From NCBI RefSeq assembly GCF_014192645.1, contig NZ_JACHYE010000001.1:812350-876349 (forward strand): a stretch of DNA of 64,000 nt, in the 5' to 3' direction. The stretch's first letter is position 1; every line of letters begins with the position of its first letter. The stretch comes from Herbaspirillum sp. Sphag64. Its GTDB lineage: Bacteria > Pseudomonadota > Gammaproteobacteria > Burkholderiales > Burkholderiaceae_D. Positions 43,863 to 56,196 of the stretch are shown piece by piece. The notes beneath the pieces are model-generated. The model had not been told where the DNA came from, ran no database searches, and saw only the letters and a program-made list of their open reading frames with translations. Both the position numbers and the translations under genes were made by a program.

Positions 43863-44064
43863 CTCCATTTTTTGATGATTGCAGGTGGTAGCAAAACGCT
43901 ACTCTTTGATGCCTGCTCTCACTTATTGGCAACAGCTTGCGCTGCTGCTTTTGCAACAAGTCCCAACTGCAGACTTGCCGGCAAAAACATCGGCCTGACG
44001 TTACCGCCAGGCCGGTATTCACAGGCACCAGACAAGGCCGGCACACTGTGTGAAAAAGTAGGAA

Positions 44065-44586
44065 TTACTTCTTCTTTTTCGGTGCCAGAACCATGATCAT
44101 CTGGCGACCTTCCATCTTTGGAAACTGCTCCACCTGACCAAATGGCTCGAGGTCGGCTTTCAAGCGCTCCAGCACGCGCATCCCAATTTCCTGGTGGGCC
44201 ATCTCACGACCGCGGAAACGCAGTGTGATCTTGGTTTTATCCCCTTCTTCCAGGAACTTGGTCAAATTGCGCAACTTAATGTTGTAATCGCCGTCATCGG
44301 TACCAGGACGGAATTTAACTTCCTTAACCTGAATGACCTTTTGCTTCAGCTTGGCTTCATGAGCTTTTTTCTGCTCCTGATACTTAAACTTGCCATAATC
44401 CATCAAGCGCGCTACCGGAGGTTGCGCAGTTGGTGCGATTTCCACCAGATCCACGTTCGCCTCTTCCGCCAGACGGAATGCCTCTGCCAAACTGACGATG
44501 CCTAGCGGCTCGTTATTGACCCCGGATAAACGCAGTTCAGGTGCTGTAATTTCACCATTAATGCGATGCGACTTATCAGTAGCTAT
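44065..44586 (-). CDS. infC: Translation initiation factor IF-3, AUA start
   Basis: A 173-aa factor that binds the 30S subunit and rejects non-canonical start codons. The N-terminal domain starts [20 protein letters not shown], and the C-terminal domain has [20 protein letters not shown] and ends MVLAPKKKK. The only start giving a full-length protein is ATA at 44586, with AAAGGA 7 nt upstream; an in-frame TAA lies five codons before it. Use of a non-AUG start is the known basis of infC autoregulation (AUU in E. coli). Confidence 0.95.
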
Positions 44587-44635
44587 TGCAGTTTCCTTTT
44601 AACGTCCAATAAATTAAGCCGTGCTCTTGCGCTGG

Positions 44636-44655
44636 AAGATGCCTCCAGGCATCTT
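44636..44655 (-). other. Stem-loop between thrS and infC
   Basis: AAGATGCCT-CC-AGGCATCTT is a perfect 9-bp hairpin immediately after the thrS stop codon, without a U-run. It is more likely an mRNA processing or stability element than a terminator. Confidence 0.5.
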
Positions 44656-46562
44656 TAGGCTTTGGTGTCGACCTCAGTTTTGAGGCGCTCCACCAACACG
44701 TCGATAGGCATCACACCCAGGTCGACATTGCCCCGCGCACGCACGGCCACTGTATTTGTATCACGCTCTTTATCACCGACTACGAGAATGTAAGGCGGCT
44801 TCTGTAGAGAATGCTGCCGTATTTTATAGGTAATCTTCTCGTTACGCAAATCGGTCTCTACTCTAAACCCTTGTTTTTTCAGCGTTTGCGCAACGTTTTT
44901 GACATATTCAGATTGCGCATCGGAAATATTCAGGATCACCACCTGAGTCGGCGCCAGCCACAATGGCATCGCACCAGCGTGGTTTTCGATCAAAATCGCG
45001 ATAAAACGCTCGAGCGAACCAACGATAGCCCGGTGCAACATCACTGGTACCTTGCGATCATTGTCTTCTGTGACATATTCCGCACCCAGACGTGCTGGCA
45101 TCGAGAAGTCGACCTGCATGGTGCCACATTGCCAGGAGCGGCCAATCGAATCCTTCAGATGATATTCGATCTTCGGACCATAAAAGGCACCTTCGCCCGG
45201 CAACTCTTCCCATTCGCTACCGGAGGCACGAATCGCTTCCCGCAGGGCATTTTCAGCCTTATCCCAGACCGCTTCTTCGCCGATACGCTTTTCCGGACGC
45301 AGCGCCAACTTGACGGCCACGTCAGTAAAGCCAAAGTGGGTATACACCTCGCGCACCACTTTGTTAAAAGCGGCGACCTCTTCCTGCACCTGATCTTCCG
45401 TACAGAAAATGTGACCATCATCCTGGGTAAAGCCGCGCACCCGCATCATGCCGTGCAACGCGCCAGAAGGCTCATTGCGGTGGCACTGACCAAATTCACC
45501 ATAACGCAATGGCAAATCGCGATAGCTATGCAGACCGGAGTTGAAAATCTGAATATGACCCGGGCAATTCATCGGCTTCAGGGCATAAGCGCGATTTTCA
45601 GACTCGGTGGTGAACATGTTTTCACGATAATTCTCCCAGTGACCGGTCTTCTCCCACAACGAACGATCCAGAATCTGCGGCGCCTTGACTTCCTGATACC
45701 CATTGTCTTGATACACGCGGCGCATGTACTGCTCCACCTGCTGCCAGATCGACCAACCCTTGGGATGCCAGAAAATCAGGCCAGGTGCTTCGTCCTGAAA
45801 ATGGAAGAAATCCAGCGCACGGCCAAGCTTGCGGTGATCGCGCTTTTCCGCCTCTTCCAACATGAGCAGGTAATTTTCCTGATCTTCCTTCTTGGCCCAG
45901 GCAGTGCCGTAGACACGCTGCAACATCTCGTTCTTGGAGTCGCCGCGCCAGTAGGCACCAGCCAGCTTCATCAGCTTGAACACCTTCAGCTTGCCAGTGG
46001 ACGGTACGTGTGGACCGCGACACAGATCGGTGAAACCACCCTCTGTATAGAGAGACACATCCTGATCCTGCGGAATCGATTCAATGATTTCCGCCTTATA
46101 GGCTTCACCGATGGATTTGAAATAAGCAACCGCCTCATCACGCGGCAAGACCTTGCGTGTGACCGGCTCATCCTTCTTGGCCAGCTCTGCCATCTTCTTT
46201 TCGATCGCCGCCAGATCCTCAGGCGTGAAAGGACGCTTGTAGGAAAAGTCATAGTAAAAACCATTATCGATCACCGGACCGATGGTGACCTGCGCATCCG
46301 GGAACAACTCCTTGACGGCATAGGCCAGCAAGTGGGCGGTCGAGTGACGGATCACTTCCAGACCATCCGCATCCTTGTCGGTCACAATGGCCAGATCGGC
46401 ATCGCGCTCGATCAGAAAAGACGTATCGACCAGCTTGCCATCAACCTTGCCGGCCAAGGCTGCTTTGGCCAAGCCCGCGCCAATATTGGCCGCAACCTGC
46501 GCCACTGTGACAGGCGCATCGAACTGGCGTTGCGAACCATCGGGAAGACGAACTGAAACCAT
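44655..46562 (-). CDS. thrS: Threonine-tRNA ligase
   Basis: A 635-aa class II synthetase. In order: TGS domain ([20 protein letters not shown], residues 1-60), editing domain with [18 protein letters not shown] and [10 protein letters not shown], catalytic core with the zinc ligand region [12 protein letters not shown] and [11 protein letters not shown]-like motif 2 ([20 protein letters not shown]), and the C-terminal anticodon-binding domain ([20 protein letters not shown]). AGGGAG precedes the ATG. Its leader contains a Thr-rich peptide and a terminator. Confidence 0.98.
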
Positions 46563-46651
46563 TTTTAACTCCCTGCCGTCAGGACTAGGCCGAACGGATC
46601 AAATAAATAAAATGAAATACGAGATGAAATACAAGACGGAAAATGCGGACG

Positions 46652-46674
46652 AAAAAAAACGCGGACTAGCCGCG
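46652..46674 (-). terminator. Leader terminator (attenuator) upstream of thrS
   Basis: On the minus strand CGCGG-CTAGT-CCGCG followed by eight T, 90 nt upstream of the thrS start and therefore inside its leader. AAGCGCGG in the 5' arm (forward 46670-46677) is exactly complementary to CCGCGCTT inside the leader peptide frame (forward 46718-46725), so an alternative pairing that removes the terminator exists. Confidence 0.7.
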
Positions 46675-46702
46675 CTTTTTCAAAAGACGAAAAAGAACCC
46701 GA

Positions 46703-46744
46703 CTAGCGTCGCGTAACAAGCGCGGTGGTAGTTCGCGGTGTCAT
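46703..46744 (-). CDS. Threonine-rich leader peptide of thrS, 13 aa
   Basis: ATG 46744 to TAG 46703 encodes MTPRTTTALVTRR: five Thr in thirteen residues, with codons ACA, ACT, ACC, ACC, ACG. GAAAGG lies about 10 nt upstream. The stop is 28 nt before the terminator stem. This is the standard design of ribosome-mediated attenuation in which Thr-tRNA shortage stalls the ribosome. In E. coli thrS is controlled differently (ThrRS binds its own mRNA), so the mechanism here would be distinct. Confidence 0.7.
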   Translation of the reverse strand: MTPRTTTALVTRR

Positions 46745-46855
46745 AACCAGGATGCCTTTCTCGCTCTTACAGATGTGAGGGTAATGCTTGAATCGCGTTA
46801 AATTGACGCCATTGCGCCAAATAGAGCCAGAATTATATCAAATTAATGTGAGGTT

Positions 46856-47207
46856 GCCGATACCAGAGCAGATTCGCGATGCCCGATCCTATCTGGAAAG
46901 TGGCATCGCCGAATTGCGGAACGCCCAAACCTATCTGGAAAGTGGCGGGCCGGCAGATCGAATCTACTCTGGTATCGGCACCGGGAGGGGCTGCCGAAGT
47001 GCCTGCGCGATCATACAGATAAGAGAGAAGACTCCGATGCCCAGACCTATCTGGAAAGTGGCACCGTCACAAGGTGAATCAACTCTATTATCTGCACGAA
47101 CAGGCAGTAACAGGCTTTGACACGGATAAGAGAGAAGATTCCCGGCACCCAGTCCTATCTGGAAAGTGGCACCGACGAAAGGTGAATCTGCTCTGCTATC
47201 CGCGCAT
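46856..47207. repeat. Cluster of imperfect ~85-bp repeats with a 17-bp core
   Basis: CCTATCTGGAAAGTGGC occurs exactly four times, at 46888, 46930, 47046 and 47154. Around it a longer unit (47015-47100 and 47122-47207, with a partial copy at 46921-46981) contains GATAAGAGAGAAGA before and GAATCTRCTCT after the core. An inverted copy of the distal part, ATACCAGAGCAGATTC, lies at 46860-46875. The units read open on both strands but no start signals support a gene; I take them as a dispersed non-coding repeat upstream of thrS. Confidence 0.7.
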
Positions 47208-47539
47208 CAGCGAATAAGACAAAGAACATACGACAACGGCGCCAATAACAACAGGCAGCACGCTAAGCGTTCAAAGGGGAAGATTTACAGATGAATTACT
47301 AAAACAGAGATGGCCTGTGATGACCAGAAATGCAGAAGAAATGCGGAGTAACTGTTAACCTTCACTTGGCAGCCAACTTGACCGTGTTATTTATTTTTTT
47401 TATTAACACTATTGACTGCCGACTTTTTGCTTCCCAAAAATCAATACCGAAATATAGCACAAGAATTCGCGCTGTGCAAAATATTTGCATAAAAATTCTC
47501 ACACAGCGCGATTATTCCATTTCGCCAACTTTCCCGCAC
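47208..47539. other. 332-bp A+T-rich gene-free region
   Basis: Lies between the repeat cluster and the end of the dehydrogenase gene. It contains a T8 tract near 47393-47400 and no convincing reading frame, RNA gene or terminator. Confidence 0.5.
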
Positions 47540-50500
47540 CTACACCAGTGCTGCCGCCAACACCCGCGCCACATGCAAGGCCTCACGCGCAGCACCATCC
47601 TGTATCTGATGACGGCAACTGGTGCCATCCGCCACCACAATGGTATCGGCAGATGCCTGACGTACCGCTGGCAACAGGGATAGTTCAGCCATTGCCATGG
47701 AGGTATCGTAATGCTCCTTCTCATAGCCGAAGCTGCCTGCCATGCCACAACAGGACGACGCCACCAGATCCACCTGCGCCAGAGGAATCCATTGCAACAC
47801 TTGCGGTACCGGGCGTAAAGCGTCGAAGGCCTTTTGATGGCAATGACCGTGCAATAGTATCTTCTTGCCCGATAACGGTTTGAGCTTCAATGCAAGGCGG
47901 CCGGCCTGATGCTCCTGCAACAGGAATTCTTCAAACAGGAAGGACGACTGCGCCAGCTGCTGCGCCTCATCACCATAACCATACTGCAGGAACTCATCGC
48001 GCAAGGTCAGCAGGCATGATGGCTCCAGCCCTACCACGGCTACCCCGCGCTGTACGTAAGGCAACAAGATATCAAGTGTACGGCGCGCCTCAGCCTTTGC
48101 CTCTTCAACCAACCCTGCGGCCAGATACGTGCGGCCGCAACACAGAGGGCGCTCACCATTGACCGTATTGAAATGCACGGTATAACCGGCAGATTCCAGC
48201 ACCTGTTGCGCGGCCCGGGCGTTTTCCGGCTCAAAATGATTGTTGAAGGTATCGACAAACAGCAATACCTCTTTACCGTCAACACCAGAGGGCGAGGTCA
48301 GCGCATTACCGAGAAACGGCTTCCGAAACCGCGGCAAGGAACGCTGCGGTGCCAGCCCCAACCAGTTCTTTGCCAGAGTCGACAGCAAAGGAATCCGCTG
48401 CGCCAATGCCAGTATGCCGCCAATCTTTGCTGCTTGCCCTGCATACGCTGGCAACTGCGCCACCAGCCGCTCACGCAAACTCACACCATGACGTCCAACC
48501 CATGCTGAGCGCGCCTCAATCTTAAGCTTGGCCATATCCACTCCGGTAGGACAATCGCGCTTGCACCCCTTGCACGAGATGCACAGATCCAGCACCTCCT
48601 TGACCACCGGACTGGCCAGCCCATCTTCATCAATCTGCCCCGACAGCGCCAGCCGTAAGGTATTGGCACGCCCACGCGTGACATGCTGTTCATCGCGGGT
48701 GACACGATAGCTGGGACACATCGTCCCAGCATCAAACTTGCGGCAATGACCGTTGTTGTTGCACATCTCGACTAGCTTGGCGAGCCCTCCACTGCGATCG
48801 CCGCCACTACCGGGTGCACTCTCCTGACCGCTCAACGGATGGCGTTTGACGTTCCATGCCGACCAGTCCAGCGCTGGCGTATACGGCAATTCACGATAAC
48901 CAGGCGGGAAGCGGAAGTTACTGACATCATCCATCTTCGGTGGCCGCACGATCTTGTCCGGATTGAGACGATTATCGGGATCAAACAATTGCTTGATCTC
49001 AGCAAAGGCAGCATTGAGTCGCGGACCATATTGCCAGGCCACCCATTCGCCGCGACACAAACCATCACCATGTTCACCGGAATACGCGCCCTTGTACTTG
49101 CGCACCAGTACCGCTGCGGCTTCGGCAATCTCACGCATATGCTTCGCACCATCGCGTCGCATATCCAGAATCGGACGCACATGCAAGGTACCGACACTGG
49201 CATGCGCATACCAGGTGCCTTCCGTACCGTATTTGTGAAACACCTCTGTCAAGGCACTGGTGTATTCGGCCAGATGCTCCAGTGGCACAGCGCAATCTTC
49301 GATAAAAGACACCGGCTTGCCATCCCCCTTCATGCTCATCATGATATTGAGCCCGGCCTTGCGTACTTCCCACAAGGCTTTTTGCTGGCTTGCCCCCGGC
49401 ATCTCGACCACGCTACCCGGCAACCCTAAATCACTCATCAACTCACCAAGAAGCCTGAGTTTTTCCAGTAACGGCTGCTGGGCTTCGCCAGCAAACTCGA
49501 CCAGCAGAATTGCCTGCGGCTGCCCGCTCAAGGCTTGCTCGATCACCGGCCTGAAAGCGGGATTGCTCATCGATAGATCAATCATCGTGCGGTCCACCAG
49601 CTCCACCGCAGTAGGCCCGAGCCTGACGATATGCTGGGTCATATCCATGGCTTGATAAAAGCTCGGGAAGTTCACCACGCCCAGCACCTTGTGCTCCGGT
49701 AGCGGCGCCAATGCCAGTGTGATCTGACGGGTATGCGCCAGGGTTCCCTCCGAACCGATCAGGATATGCGCCAGATTGGCGACACCATCATCGGTGTAAG
49801 CACGCGGATTTTGACAATCGAAAATATCAATGTTGTACCCCGCCACGCGACGCAAGACCTTGGGAATGTTATCGACGATGTCGGCCCGCTCACGTCGCGC
49901 AATCCCCTGCAAGCCTTGCACAATGCCAGCCACACGCGGATGACCAAGATCCATCTCCGGCAGACGCTCGAATCGCGCCTCAACACCATCGGCCAGAATT
50001 GCATCAATGGCCAATACGTTGTGCACCATGTTGCCGTATTCAATCGAGCGAGAACCACAGGAGTTATTCCCCGCCATGCCGCCGATGGTGCATTGTGCCG
50101 CCGTCGATACATCGACTGGAAACCACAAGCCATGCGGTTTCAGCCAGGCGTTCAGATGATCAAGCACCATCCCCGGCTCCACCGTCACGGTGCGCGCCAC
50201 AGCATCGAAATCAATGATCTGGTTCAGATACTTGCTGTGGTCAATCACCAGCGCCTCGGCAACCGTTTGCCCGCACTGACTGGTACCGGCACCTCGCGCC
50301 AGCAAGGGCAAGCCGTGCTGACGGGCGATATCCAATGTCAGGCGCAGATCAGCCTGATCACGCGGCACCACCACACCAAGCGGCATGATCTGGTAGATCG
50401 ATGCATCGGTCGCATAGCGACCACGGTCAGCCAGACCGAACAGCACGTCGCCACGCAGTTCCTGTTGCAGTTGTTTGACGAAAGTCGGCGCGATGGCAGC

Positions 50501-50545
50501 GCCCCGAGTGCCCGAAGGCACCAGATGAATTGGCTTGATCAACAT
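47540..50545 (-). CDS. FAD/Fe-S oxidoreductase, YdiJ type (D-2-hydroxyacid dehydrogenase)
   Basis: A 1001-aa fusion protein. It has an FAD-binding PCMH domain (about 45-270; ARGAGTSQCGQTVAEALVID, GNNSCGSRSIEYGNM), an FAD-oxidase C-terminal domain (SGEHGDGLCRGEWVAWQYGP), Cys motifs near 595 (CNNNGHCRKFD, MCPSY) and 660 (CISCKGCKRDCP) for iron-sulfur clusters, and CCG-type domains near 800 and 935 (CCGMAGSFGYE). Such enzymes oxidise D-lactate or D-2-hydroxyglutarate-like acids and pass electrons to the membrane. AGGAAA precedes the ATG. First in a row with an MFS gene and an aminotransferase gene upstream. Confidence 0.9.
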   Translation of the reverse strand: MLIKPIHLVPSGTRGAAIAPTFVKQLQQELRGDVLFGLADRGRYATDASIYQIMPLGVVVPRDQADLRLTLDIARQHGLPLLARGAGTSQCGQTVAEALVIDHSKYLNQIIDFDAVARTVTVEPGMVLDHLNAWLKPHGLWFPVDVSTAAQCTIGGMAGNNSCGSRSIEYGNMVHNVLAIDAILADGVEARFERLPEMDLGHPRVAGIVQGLQGIARRERADIVDNIPKVLRRVAGYNIDIFDCQNPRAYTDDGVANLAHILIGSEGTLAHTRQITLALAPLPEHKVLGVVNFPSFYQAMDMTQHIVRLGPTAVELVDRTMIDLSMSNPAFRPVIEQALSGQPQAILLVEFAGEAQQPLLEKLRLLGELMSDLGLPGSVVEMPGASQQKALWEVRKAGLNIMMSMKGDGKPVSFIEDCAVPLEHLAEYTSALTEVFHKYGTEGTWYAHASVGTLHVRPILDMRRDGAKHMREIAEAAAVLVRKYKGAYSGEHGDGLCRGEWVAWQYGPRLNAAFAEIKQLFDPDNRLNPDKIVRPPKMDDVSNFRFPPGYRELPYTPALDWSAWNVKRHPLSGQESAPGSGGDRSGGLAKLVEMCNNNGHCRKFDAGTMCPSYRVTRDEQHVTRGRANTLRLALSGQIDEDGLASPVVKEVLDLCISCKGCKRDCPTGVDMAKLKIEARSAWVGRHGVSLRERLVAQLPAYAGQAAKIGGILALAQRIPLLSTLAKNWLGLAPQRSLPRFRKPFLGNALTSPSGVDGKEVLLFVDTFNNHFEPENARAAQQVLESAGYTVHFNTVNGERPLCCGRTYLAAGLVEEAKAEARRTLDILLPYVQRGVAVVGLEPSCLLTLRDEFLQYGYGDEAQQLAQSSFLFEEFLLQEHQAGRLALKLKPLSGKKILLHGHCHQKAFDALRPVPQVLQWIPLAQVDLVASSCCGMAGSFGYEKEHYDTSMAMAELSLLPAVRQASADTIVVADGTSCRHQIQDGAAREALHVARVLAAALV

Positions 50546-50579
50546 GGATTTTCCTGTTCAGATTCAGAAGGCAAGGCTG

Positions 50580-51863
50580 TTATACGCCTACTTTCATCGG
50601 CTTGTGCCGTGCCGATGGCAACTGGGTTTCAAACTTCTGGTCTGGCTGCAGACGGTAAGCCAGCACCATACCCAAAGCCATCAACAGCATGCTGCCCAGG
50701 AACGGCAATTCCCAATTACCGGTACGATCAATCACGAAGCCTGACAACACCGGCGAGATAATCGCCGCTAGCGCGGAACCACTATTCATCATGCCGCTCG
50801 CAGTACCGGCATACTCCGGTGCAATATCCATCGGTAAGGCCCACATTGGACCGATCGTCATTTCCGCAAAAAAGAAACCCGCACTCAAGGCCAGCGTGCA
50901 GATCGTCAGATCATGCACAAACAACAACGGCAACAAGGACAGCAAGGTCAGGAACATGCAAACCGACACCATGATGCTGCGCGCCTTGCGCAAGTTACCG
51001 GTACGCCGCAAAATACGGTCACTGATCAGGCCGCCCAGCGTGTCACCAATCACACCCGCAAGAAAAACACTGGAAGCAAACAGCGCCGACTTCTGAATCG
51101 CCAGGTTGTAGCTATGCAGAAAATATTGCGGAATCCAGCTCAGGAACAACCACAAGGTCCAGCCATAACAAAAGTACACAATCGTGACCGGCAACATGCG
51201 CTTGAATAATGGCCCCCAAGGCACCTGCGGTTTGCTCTTGCGGGTGGCTGGCAAGTCTGCCAGTTCGGCTTCGGTAATGCGCGGATGCGCAGCCGGATCC
51301 TCCGTAAATACCAGCGCCCAGACGATCACCCATACCAGACTGAAAATGCCGCAGATATAAAACGCCTGACGCCAGCCATAGACACTCATGACCAGCACAA
51401 TCGCTGCGGGGGCAACCGCATTGCCAACCCGTGAAAATGCATGCGTAATACCTTGCGCAAAACCGCGCCTGTCCTTCGATACCCAGCGCGACATCGCCGT
51501 CGTCGCCGCCGGGAAAGTAGCTCCCTCTCCAAGACCGAGCAGTAGCCGCGCCAATAACAAGGACACCAGACCGCCCGCCAGACCGGTCAATATCGTCGCC
51601 ACCGCCCATAGCAAACCACACCAGATGAGCGTGCGGCGCGCACCAAATTTGTCACTGACCCAGCCACCGATGATTTGAAACACCAGATAAGGATAGGCAA
51701 ACGCAGAAAACACCAGACCGATCTCGGTCCTCGACAAACCAAACTCAGCAGCAAAACCGGCTGCCGCGGTACTGACATTGACACGGTCCAGATAGGTAAT
51801 GAAATACATCAGGCACAGCATCAACAACACGATGCTGGTCGCTCGCAAACGTAGGGCTCTCAT
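50580..51863 (-). CDS. MFS transporter, anion:cation symporter family
   Basis: A 427-aa twelve-helix transporter. It shows YFITYLDRVNVSTAAAGF in helix 1, GGWVSDKFGARRTLIW (the MFS loop 2-3 signature), LLLARLLLGLGEGATFPAAT and SRWVSKDRRGFAQGI, as in hexuronate, glucarate and phthalate carriers. Start at 51863 has GGAGA 8 nt upstream. Substrate is probably an organic acid used by the neighbouring enzymes. Confidence 0.9.
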   Translation of the reverse strand: MRALRLRATSIVLLMLCLMYFITYLDRVNVSTAAAGFAAEFGLSRTEIGLVFSAFAYPYLVFQIIGGWVSDKFGARRTLIWCGLLWAVATILTGLAGGLVSLLLARLLLGLGEGATFPAATTAMSRWVSKDRRGFAQGITHAFSRVGNAVAPAAIVLVMSVYGWRQAFYICGIFSLVWVIVWALVFTEDPAAHPRITEAELADLPATRKSKPQVPWGPLFKRMLPVTIVYFCYGWTLWLFLSWIPQYFLHSYNLAIQKSALFASSVFLAGVIGDTLGGLISDRILRRTGNLRKARSIMVSVCMFLTLLSLLPLLFVHDLTICTLALSAGFFFAEMTIGPMWALPMDIAPEYAGTASGMMNSGSALAAIISPVLSGFVIDRTGNWELPFLGSMLLMALGMVLAYRLQPDQKFETQLPSARHKPMKVGV

Positions 51864-52074
51864 TGCTTGTCTCCATGATGGGTGAAGCGGCATGGTCCGA
51901 CGCGTTCTATGCGCGTTTTTAGCACTTGCTGCGTGTGTACTTTGCAGGTGCTGCTGGTGCATGGTCGATGCCGCACTTTCGGTCCGGGCAGCTCAGCCCG
52001 GCCGACTCAAAAGCGTTATCAATAGCGCGGTACGGCAGCTTCGGCGCTGCCGTACCGGCATGCAGGTTTCCGCT

Positions 52075-53295
52075 CTAGGCGATCTTGCGCAACTGCTGCT
52101 CATGCTGCTGCGCCATCAGTTGTTGCATGGCCGCTGCCACACCACTACCAGCCAGCTTCACACCCGCCTGCTGCAGGCCCATTTCGCAACCGGCCAGCGT
52201 TGCCATCAAGGTCAATTCATTGGCTTCGCCAAGATGACCAATCCGGAACATGCGGCCCTTCATCTTGCCCAGACCGGTGCCGAGCGACATGTTGAAATTC
52301 TCGTAAATGGTTTTACGGATCGCATCGGCATCAAAGCCGGCCGGCGTCATCACACCCGTCAGCACCGGCGAATAGACCGCCGGATCAGCACACTGAATCT
52401 GCAATCCCCAGGCATTGACCGCTGCACGGCACGCAGCAGCAAGGCGCTGATGACGCGCAAAAACATTGTCCAAACCCTCGCCCAGAATCATGTCTAAGGC
52501 TTCCGACAGGCCATACAACAAGTTGGTATTGGGCGTGTAAGGCCAGTAGCCGCTGGCATTCATTTCAATGATTTCAGTCCAGCCCCAGAAGGCTTTCGGC
52601 AACCGCGAATGCTTGCTGGCTTCCAGTGCCTTTTTCGATACCGCGTTGAAGCTGATACCGGGTGGCAGCATCAAGCCCTTCTGCGAACCCGACACCGTCA
52701 CATCAACACCCCACTCATCGTGGCGATAGTCCGCCGAGGCCAGACCAGAAATGGTATCCACCAACAGCAACGCAGGATGCCCCGCTGCATCAATGGCGCG
52801 GCGCACCGCAGCGATGTCCGAAGTGACGCCGGTCGAGGTCTCGTTATGCACCACGCAGACCGCCTTGATCTGATGGCCGCTGTCTTGCCGCAAACGCTGC
52901 TCAATCGCCTCAGGCTGCACCCCCCGCCGCCAGCCCTCGATACCGGGCAAGCCGAGAAACTCCGGCTGCAAACCAAGTGCTTCAGCCATTTTTTTCCAAA
53001 GAGTGGCGAAATGACCAGTCTCAACCATCAAGACGTGATCACCAGCACTCAGGGTATTGGTCAGGGCCGCTTCCCATGCGCCGGTGCCGGAGGCTGGATA
53101 AATCACAACTGGTTGCTCGGTCTTGAAAATCTTCTTGATACCCGCCAGCACCTGCAAACCCAAGGCGCCGAACTCCGGGCCACGATGGTCGATGGTGGGA
53201 TAACTCATGGCACGCAGGATCCGGTCAGGAACCGGGCTTGGGCCAGGGATTTGCAGGAAGTGACGACCGGCGGGATGAAAATCTAACTTCAACAT
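52075..53295 (-). CDS. Serine-glyoxylate / alanine-glyoxylate type aminotransferase
   Basis: A 406-aa PLP enzyme of class V. Features include the N-terminal GRHFLQIPGPSPVPDRILRA, SGTGAWEAALTNTLSAGD, VVHNETSTGV, LLLVDTISGLASADYRHDEW, the PLP lysine in VSGSQKGLMLPPG, and the C-terminal FRIGHLGEANELTL. It transfers amino groups among serine or alanine and glyoxylate or hydroxypyruvate. AAAGGAGGAG precedes the ATG. An ATTTTGTATT palindrome lies about 60 bp upstream. Confidence 0.9.
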   Translation of the reverse strand: MLKLDFHPAGRHFLQIPGPSPVPDRILRAMSYPTIDHRGPEFGALGLQVLAGIKKIFKTEQPVVIYPASGTGAWEAALTNTLSAGDHVLMVETGHFATLWKKMAEALGLQPEFLGLPGIEGWRRGVQPEAIEQRLRQDSGHQIKAVCVVHNETSTGVTSDIAAVRRAIDAAGHPALLLVDTISGLASADYRHDEWGVDVTVSGSQKGLMLPPGISFNAVSKKALEASKHSRLPKAFWGWTEIIEMNASGYWPYTPNTNLLYGLSEALDMILGEGLDNVFARHQRLAAACRAAVNAWGLQIQCADPAVYSPVLTGVMTPAGFDADAIRKTIYENFNMSLGTGLGKMKGRMFRIGHLGEANELTLMATLAGCEMGLQQAGVKLAGSGVAAAMQQLMAQQHEQQLRKIA

Positions 53296-56119: not shown

Positions 56120-56196
56120 TGGTAGGCACGATTGGACTCGAACCAACGACCCCTACCATGTCAAGGTAGTGCTCTAACCAGCTGAGCTACGCGCCT
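56120..56196 (-). tRNA. tRNA-Val (anticodon GAC)
   Basis: A 77-nt cloverleaf on the minus strand: acceptor AGGCGCG paired with CGTGCCT (one G-U), D-arm GCTCAGCTGGTTAGAGC, anticodon stem CTACC/GGTAG around TTGACAT (anticodon GAC), T-arm GTTGGTTCGAGTCCAAT and encoded ACCA end. Confidence 0.95.

Follow-up and report, generated by a model that had tools for sequence, protein, structure and literature searches.

Introduction

In E. coli, the threonyl-tRNA synthetase gene thrS is controlled by ThrRS, which binds its own mRNA, and thrS of Gram-positive bacteria is controlled by T-boxes. These systems act on the same gene as the locus described here, but in them the protein or the tRNA is sensed directly and there is no leader peptide. 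Reading of Thr codons by the ribosome is known from the leader of the E. coli thr operon, where it sets a terminator against an antiterminator; that leader also senses Ile, and it differs from the thrS leader in that it regulates threonine biosynthesis genes. E. coli pheST has an attenuator with the leader PheM. It is like the proposed thrS system in being ribosome-mediated attenuation of a synthetase gene, with a leader rich in cognate codons and with mutually exclusive antiterminator and terminator. It differs in that phenylalanine and pheST stand there in the place of threonine and thrS, whereas in the present leader the antiterminator contains the stop codon, with pheST itself found downstream in the same gene row; sequence kinship is not claimed. 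Vitreschak et al. reportedly published a study of attenuation in proteobacteria in 2004.

A gammaproteobacterial pheST attenuator has been mentioned (PMC1262725). In Streptomyces lividans TK24, thrL was predicted upstream of thrS as a peptide of 18 residues with two Thr, on a leaderless transcript with one hairpin and no U-run, and its authors consider termination unclear (PMC8079986). It shares with the thrS leader a Thr-containing peptide before thrS; the peptides are unrelated, and the prediction described there concerns one genome. Leader peptides precede hisS* and hisZ in bacilli (PMC2965389), where, as would be the case for thrS, a peptide replaces another sensing system; these leaders differ in concerning histidine and Firmicutes, and the main text of that paper contains neither "thrS" nor "infC". 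The principle of attenuation is textbook knowledge, and we did not find an account of it for thrS of Burkholderiales in the open-licence literature. A leader attenuator of thrS described in proteobacteria was likewise not found in that literature, which leaves most subscription papers outside; the search returned only the Streptomyces thrL.

Here we analyse a stretch of 64,000 nt of Herbaspirillum sp. Sphag64 (the window), together with related genomes. We regard it as highly likely that thrS is preceded in this bacterium by a ribosome-mediated transcription attenuator that senses charged tRNA-Thr, a reading drawn from sequence comparison and folding models.

Results

In the window, thrS is followed by infC, rpmI, rplT, pheS, pheT, an ihfA-like gene and a merR-like gene. 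The gene and the elements directly upstream of it are:

44655..46562, minus strand: thrS, threonyl-tRNA synthetase, the predicted regulated gene (gene calls)
46755..46762, minus strand: Shine-Dalgarno GAGAAAGG of the leader (sequence and relatives)
46703..46744, minus strand: leader peptide frame MTPRTTTALVTRR (sequence reading and relatives)
46652..46681, minus strand: intrinsic terminator, a stem-loop with 8 U (core by mechanical scan; rule; relatives)

The leader begins with ATG at 46744 and has 13 codons (ATG ACA CCG CGA ACT ACC ACC GCG CTT GTT ACG CGA CGC), five of which encode Thr (codons 2, 5, 6, 7, and 11), and it ends at the stop codon TAG (46705..46703). The terminator is composed of GAAAAAGCGCGG-CUAGU-CCGCG-U8, and 89 nt lie between the end of its U-run and the thrS ATG (46562). 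The preliminary description of this DNA had reported the 13-codon frame with its five Thr codons and ribosome binding site, a terminator stem with eight U about 90 nt before thrS, and the exact complementarity of CCGCGCTT within the leader frame to AAGCGCGG in the terminator, and in the window all of these are as it stated. Two terminator-like sites were found by mechanical scan in 46200-46900, compared to 1.0 expected in shuffles, and the folding energy of the window sequence was no better than that of shuffles (z = 0.30 for 266 nt; z = -0.67 for 121 nt). Since single-sequence folding alone cannot tell, it is conservation in relatives that raises the leader above chance. The Rfam 15 models gave three weak matches in 44000-52500 at E values up to 5, all below the gathering score and none in the leader; in the same interval there was no T-box match up to E = 5 and no match to the thr leader family.

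The gene thrS was found in 112 of 116 family genomes at the set cut-off, and 108 upstream regions were placed (G010, G044, L081, and L103 were left out). The leader start was matched in 87 of the 108, and a slightly looser rule recovered leader and terminator together in 89. A hairpin with a U-run was present in 216 of the 217 leaders that satisfy the rule, the exception by the rule used being L119. Judged by eye, the 19 family upstreams that fail the leader-plus-terminator rule comprise six with divergent frames (L016, L097, L098, L102, L104, and L106), one truncated region (L101), and twelve without a recognisable leader (L032, L046, L052, L056, L057, L072, L079, L093, L095, L099, L100, and L111). 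Several of these twelve belong to genomes of 1.9–2.6 Mb, and several keep a similar terminator before thrS. They are possible losses of the sensor and could be used as natural controls.

Beyond the family, we searched genome-wide, with one genome per species, for a strict DNA pattern of the ribosome binding site and first codons, which fixes the first four codons and the AC of the fifth, so that counts there are built in. At least 118 loci were obtained (the pattern set), and their species overlap with those of the family set. Among the matches listed, thrS starts 139–321 nt downstream of the match start in 115 of 118 loci; in L161, L168, and L170 the stretch ends with no usable thrS match, and L161 shows a ThrRS-like start near its end. 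We take the 80 named ones among the matches listed to be Burkholderiales, save five vaguely named MAGs (L120 is labelled Alphaproteobacteria), and the named loci presumably represent Comamonadaceae, Oxalobacteraceae, Burkholderia, Paraburkholderia, Cupriavidus, Roseateles, and others. A relaxed pattern, for which the pattern match alone was counted, occurred in 56 of 399 genomes of the order, including matches in G186 and G277 that are unlike the rest and may be due to chance. In a class sample of 274 genomes, it occurred in three of the order and in one of the 271 others, where the match differs. The backwards control pattern matched 2 of the 399 genomes of the order and 2 of the 274 in the class sample. 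The order set had thrS in 245 of 250 genomes; 30 loci were read among the matches listed, and 13 of them satisfy the leader-plus-terminator rule, some being family members already counted. By the relaxed-pattern and downstream-thrS counts, the element in this form is restricted to a single order and, where testable, belongs to a single gene.

The Thr codons of the leader are conserved at positions that the search rules leave free. Because the family rule requires [AG]C at codon 2 and AC at codon 5, counts at these two positions are built in; the rule leaves codons 6–8 free. Thr occupies codon 6 in 66 of 89 family leaders, codon 7 in 66, and codon 8 in 26, and at codons 9–12 it is found in only 2–7 (n = 75–89). 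The corresponding numbers in the pattern set are 93, 54, and 23 of 114, followed by 12–19 of 113–114 at codons 9–11. Codon 6 of the pattern set is written as ACA (28), ACG (29), ACC (18), or ACT (18); sensing at the codon level predicts just this, a Thr that stays constant while its third base changes. Most leaders have ACA at codon 2 and ACT at codon 5, and among the Thr codons of four window genes these are the two rarer ones (11 and 15 of 116). Codon 4 is CGA in all 89 family leaders, with the third base free in the rule, and CGA provides just 6 of the 153 Arg codons in the four genes; the invariance of so rare a codon implies that the beginning of the frame is also under constraint at the RNA level. 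At the start of the peptide, MTPRT is nearly constant among the leaders found, being also part of the search rules, and the second half of the peptide is variable in sequence, with leaders of 10 to 24 residues.

A promoter scan points to a possible start of transcription upstream of the leader:

46832..46860, minus strand: promoter-like site TCGGCA - 17 - TATAAT with extended -10 (consensus matches 10/12)

Its -10 element TATAAT lies at 46837..46832. One promoter-like site was found compared to 0.6 expected by chance, so the site is weak on its own. From this predicted promoter, transcription would begin near 46825, and termination would release a leader of roughly 170 nt. In Cupriavidus metallidurans, we take Rmet_R0015 to be an RNA gene upstream of thrS. 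If so, the thrS start given under this tag in a start-site table for that species (PMC9045368), the closest experimental hint, would fit a start ahead of the leader. Just upstream of thrS, at 46850..46985, there is an inverted repeat in which TGCCGATACCAGAGCAGATTCG is followed some 90 nt later by a near-complement, and which overlaps the -35 of the promoter-like site; two partial copies occur within 200 nt and one on another contig.

The leader transcript contains two pairs of strands that would form an antiterminator:

46700..46707, minus strand: region 2 GCUAGUCG, which overlaps the stop codon and supplies the 5' strand of the antiterminator core (pairing tests, relatives)
46665..46672, minus strand: region 3 CGGCUAGU, which comprises the end of the terminator 5' arm and the loop and pairs with region 2 (pairing tests, relatives)
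46689..46695, minus strand: CUUUUUC, 5' strand of the antiterminator U/A helix (alignment and folds)
46675..46681, minus strand: GAAAAAG, 3' strand of the U/A helix and also foot of the terminator 5' arm (alignment and folds)

All folds and pairings were computed on distinct sequences only (194, 189, 188, 77, or 81). In 77 aligned family sequences, the consensus antiterminator hairpin of 18 pairs has 88.3% of its cells paired, compared to 41–55% when slid by 1–3 columns and a mean of 86.7% when the 3' letters are shuffled, with 0 of 500 shuffles reaching the real value. Double-sided cells number 45 versus a mean of 24.4 in shuffles; 40 are in the U/A helix and only 5 in the core, most pairs of which hardly vary, so that within the family the core reflects persistence more than covariation. 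Comparison across lineages is the stronger test. Over 189 distinct pairs, the duplex of regions 2 and 3 from the same leader has -14.39 kcal/mol versus -12.96 kcal/mol when partners are swapped, a value that none of 2000 permutations equalled. Against dinucleotide shuffles of itself, region 2 pairs better in 174 of 188 sequences and ranks within the best tenth in 105 of 188. These controls leave the shared ancestry of the species in place. The Rhodoferax leader L116 pairs GUCCGCGU with GCGCGGAC, and Burkholderia-type leaders (L141, L143, and L158) pair UCGAGG with CCUCGA in a terminator of other sequence. Like the leader, its Thr codons, and the terminator, this complementarity is read from the sequences themselves, and an antiterminator that excludes the terminator is kept with them in relatives.

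The preliminary description had chosen a different competing structure, CCGCGCTT:AAGCGCGG. This pairing reaches at least 7 pairs in 1 of 89 family leaders, that of the window only, and we set it aside as a conserved antiterminator. In the window it is a strong competitor, being the MFE structure of the 121 nt and holding region 3 at 0.85 without a ribosome; a ribosome stalled at Thr codons 5–7 would cover CCGCGCTT, which would make the pairing ill suited to attenuation. The broader part of that description, a Thr-rich leader and terminator acting as a ribosome-mediated attenuator of thrS, is borne out as far as comparison of relatives can tell. The conserved Thr codons, conserved stop position, and competing stems that it had proposed to look for are all found in the family, and the sequences give no sign of the two outcomes it had named as fatal, namely Thr codons unconserved in relatives or a transcription start downstream of 46744.

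The dependence of termination on ribosome position is predicted by folding. The ribosome was represented by a mask that ends 11 nt beyond the first base of the A-site codon, with all sequence before that point hidden. In the window, the terminator probability was 0.90 without a ribosome, 0.00–0.01 with the ribosome at codons 2–10, 0.75 at codon 11, and 0.80 at the stop. Across 81 distinct family sequences, it was 0.90 without a ribosome, 0.27 at codon 6, and 0.86 at the stop, and this picture did not change for hidden lengths of 8–17 nt. All 194 sequences gave 0.92, 0.58, and 0.89, versus 0.84, 0.84, and 0.85 in the spacer-shuffled control, and the difference between stop and stalled positions exceeded 0.3 in 77 of 194 real versus 38 of 582 shuffled sequences. 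The conserved Thr codons are predicted to fall within the zone where a stalled ribosome favours readthrough, and the stop where termination is favoured, an arrangement that follows classical attenuation; the Thr at codon 11 of the window falls outside the readthrough zone. The pattern set barely switches under equilibrium folding (0.94, 0.80, and 0.91; 104 distinct sequences). Before region 4 is made, its region 3 is held at 0.71 with the ribosome at codon 6 and at 0.63 at the stop, or at 0.46 at the stop with a larger mask. The weak switch in the pattern set suggests that the mechanism there must be kinetic, if real, or that the simple mask is wrong. Overall, region 3 is held more at codons 5–6 than at the stop in 115 of 194 sequences and less in 22; in the window, before region 4 exists, the untranslated leader also holds region 3 (0.85).

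Default termination in the family is predicted to depend on the 15–25 nt ahead of the leader start, and it drops to 0.77 when 60 nt of upstream sequence are visible. When the window leader and L008 are folded without a ribosome, their Shine-Dalgarno stretch is predicted to pair with CUUUUUC, which would explain default termination and part of the strong conservation of the initiation region among relatives. A pairing of codons 3–6 with the post-stop region (region 2) was rejected as a universal default, with -7.83 versus -8.09 in shuffles for the family (78 sequences); it scored -10.50 versus -8.46 in the pattern set (102 sequences) and -8.19 versus -7.96 in the order set (8 sequences), and beat shuffles in only 109 of 188 overall. 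The leader around 46770..46727 may also have a conserved fold that places the start codon in the loop of a hairpin (CGGU-UAUGAC-ACCG) and leaves the Shine-Dalgarno within an internal loop; because its pairs hardly vary, no conclusion is drawn from it.

Downstream of thrS, a further terminator-like element is present, and a tRNA gene lies far upstream:

44014..43991, coding strand: terminator-like hairpin with T-run between infC and rpmI (sequence)
56120..56196, same strand as thrS: tRNA-Val(GAC), about 9.4 kb upstream with other genes between

Judging from its sequence, the hairpin may limit or regulate readthrough into rpmI-rplT-pheST. In C. metallidurans, infC and rpmI are given start sites of their own in the table (PMC9045368). 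Judged by eye, infC of the window seems to start at a non-standard ATA (44586) after AAAAGGAAAC, with the frame ATA GCT ACT GAT AAG in frame with the IF3 match. A tRNA was predicted in 61 of 108 family upstreams (up to 500 nt), with 68 of 70 predictions being Val-GAC, and in 30 of 115 pattern upstreams. In many relatives, a tRNA-Val(GAC) gene stands shortly upstream of the leader (e.g. L017, L054, L061, L097, L104, L112, L141, L143, and L151).

Discussion

The leader and terminator very probably turn thrS up when threonine-loaded tRNA runs short. In the proposed mechanism, RNA polymerase would start upstream and a ribosome would follow on the 13-codon leader. When charged tRNA-Thr is scarce, the ribosome would stall at Thr codon 2, 5, 6, or 7, covering the Shine-Dalgarno and first codons and leaving the region of the stop codon free. 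The free GCUAGUCG and CUUUUUC could then pair with CGGCUAGU and GAAAAAG, the terminator would not form, and thrS would be transcribed. When charged tRNA-Thr is plentiful, the ribosome would reach the stop inside region 2 and cover this region, and the terminator would form. In an untranslated leader, the upstream part would occupy the antiterminator strands and give the terminator by default, the strands being Shine-Dalgarno and CUUUUUC in the window and codons 3–6 and the post-stop region in the wider set. The steps that we infer are ribosome stalling, a response to threonine, and any influence on infC and the genes after it.

The conserved initiation region, with its possible start-codon hairpin, could also mean that the leader senses translation initiation or the general supply of ribosomes through occupancy of the Shine-Dalgarno, with the Thr codons incidental. 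Predicted folding lends itself to such a sensor, as hiding the transcript to 15 nt before the start lowers the family terminator probability from 0.90 to 0.61, and hiding it up to the start lowers it to 0.41; IF3 and ribosomal proteins are encoded downstream. However, codons 6 and 7 keep Thr while their third base varies, which a sensor of this kind does not need, and thrS comes first downstream in 115 of the 118 pattern loci among the matches listed, the other three being cut. We consider this explanation improbable. The same kept codons stay unexplained if the terminator is controlled by a protein bound to the leader RNA, either ThrRS, as on its own mRNA in E. coli, or another one, while the Thr codons of the peptide go unread, which we think very improbable. 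The terminator loops, CUGGU in 34 and CUAGU in 26 of 89 family leaders, speak for it in that we take them to resemble the Thr anticodon loop. But the loop is CUAGC or CUGGC in 16 of 89, and many other loops occur in the pattern set. A variety of loops is expected if they are shaped by pairing with region 2, and a Thr-anticodon-like loop read by ThrRS was set aside because the loops vary among relatives.

A product with a function of its own, either a small protein or nascent-chain arrest peptide or, after termination, a trans-acting small RNA, would fit the near-constant MTPRT and the release of the terminated leader expected from the predicted start. The constant beginning can, however, be explained by the RNA-level constraint seen at CGA and is itself in the search rules; the second half of the peptide varies over lengths of 10 to 24 residues, and the element stands beside thrS in 115 of 118 pattern loci among the matches listed, with the rest cut. 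To this reading we give hardly any credence, and attenuation by a ribosome reading the Thr codons remains our preferred explanation.

A farther-reaching version of the attenuation model is that, in much of Burkholderiales, one Thr-charging switch sets the whole thrS-infC-rpmI-rplT-pheST-ihfA row, with the Shine-Dalgarno as a strand of the switch, and that the transcript of many species begins with tRNA-Val(GAC). We hold this to be rather unlikely; if true, threonine supply would adjust an initiation factor, two ribosomal proteins, and PheRS.

Beside control by ThrRS and by T-boxes, conserved attenuation through a leader peptide would give thrS another mode of regulation, widespread in one order. 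The thrS leader would be a testable sensor of Thr-tRNA charging and would explain a conserved stretch that is blank in Rfam. The terminator and antiterminator pairs that change together among the Oxalobacteraceae, Rhodoferax, and Burkholderia types would offer a natural series for the evolution of attenuators.
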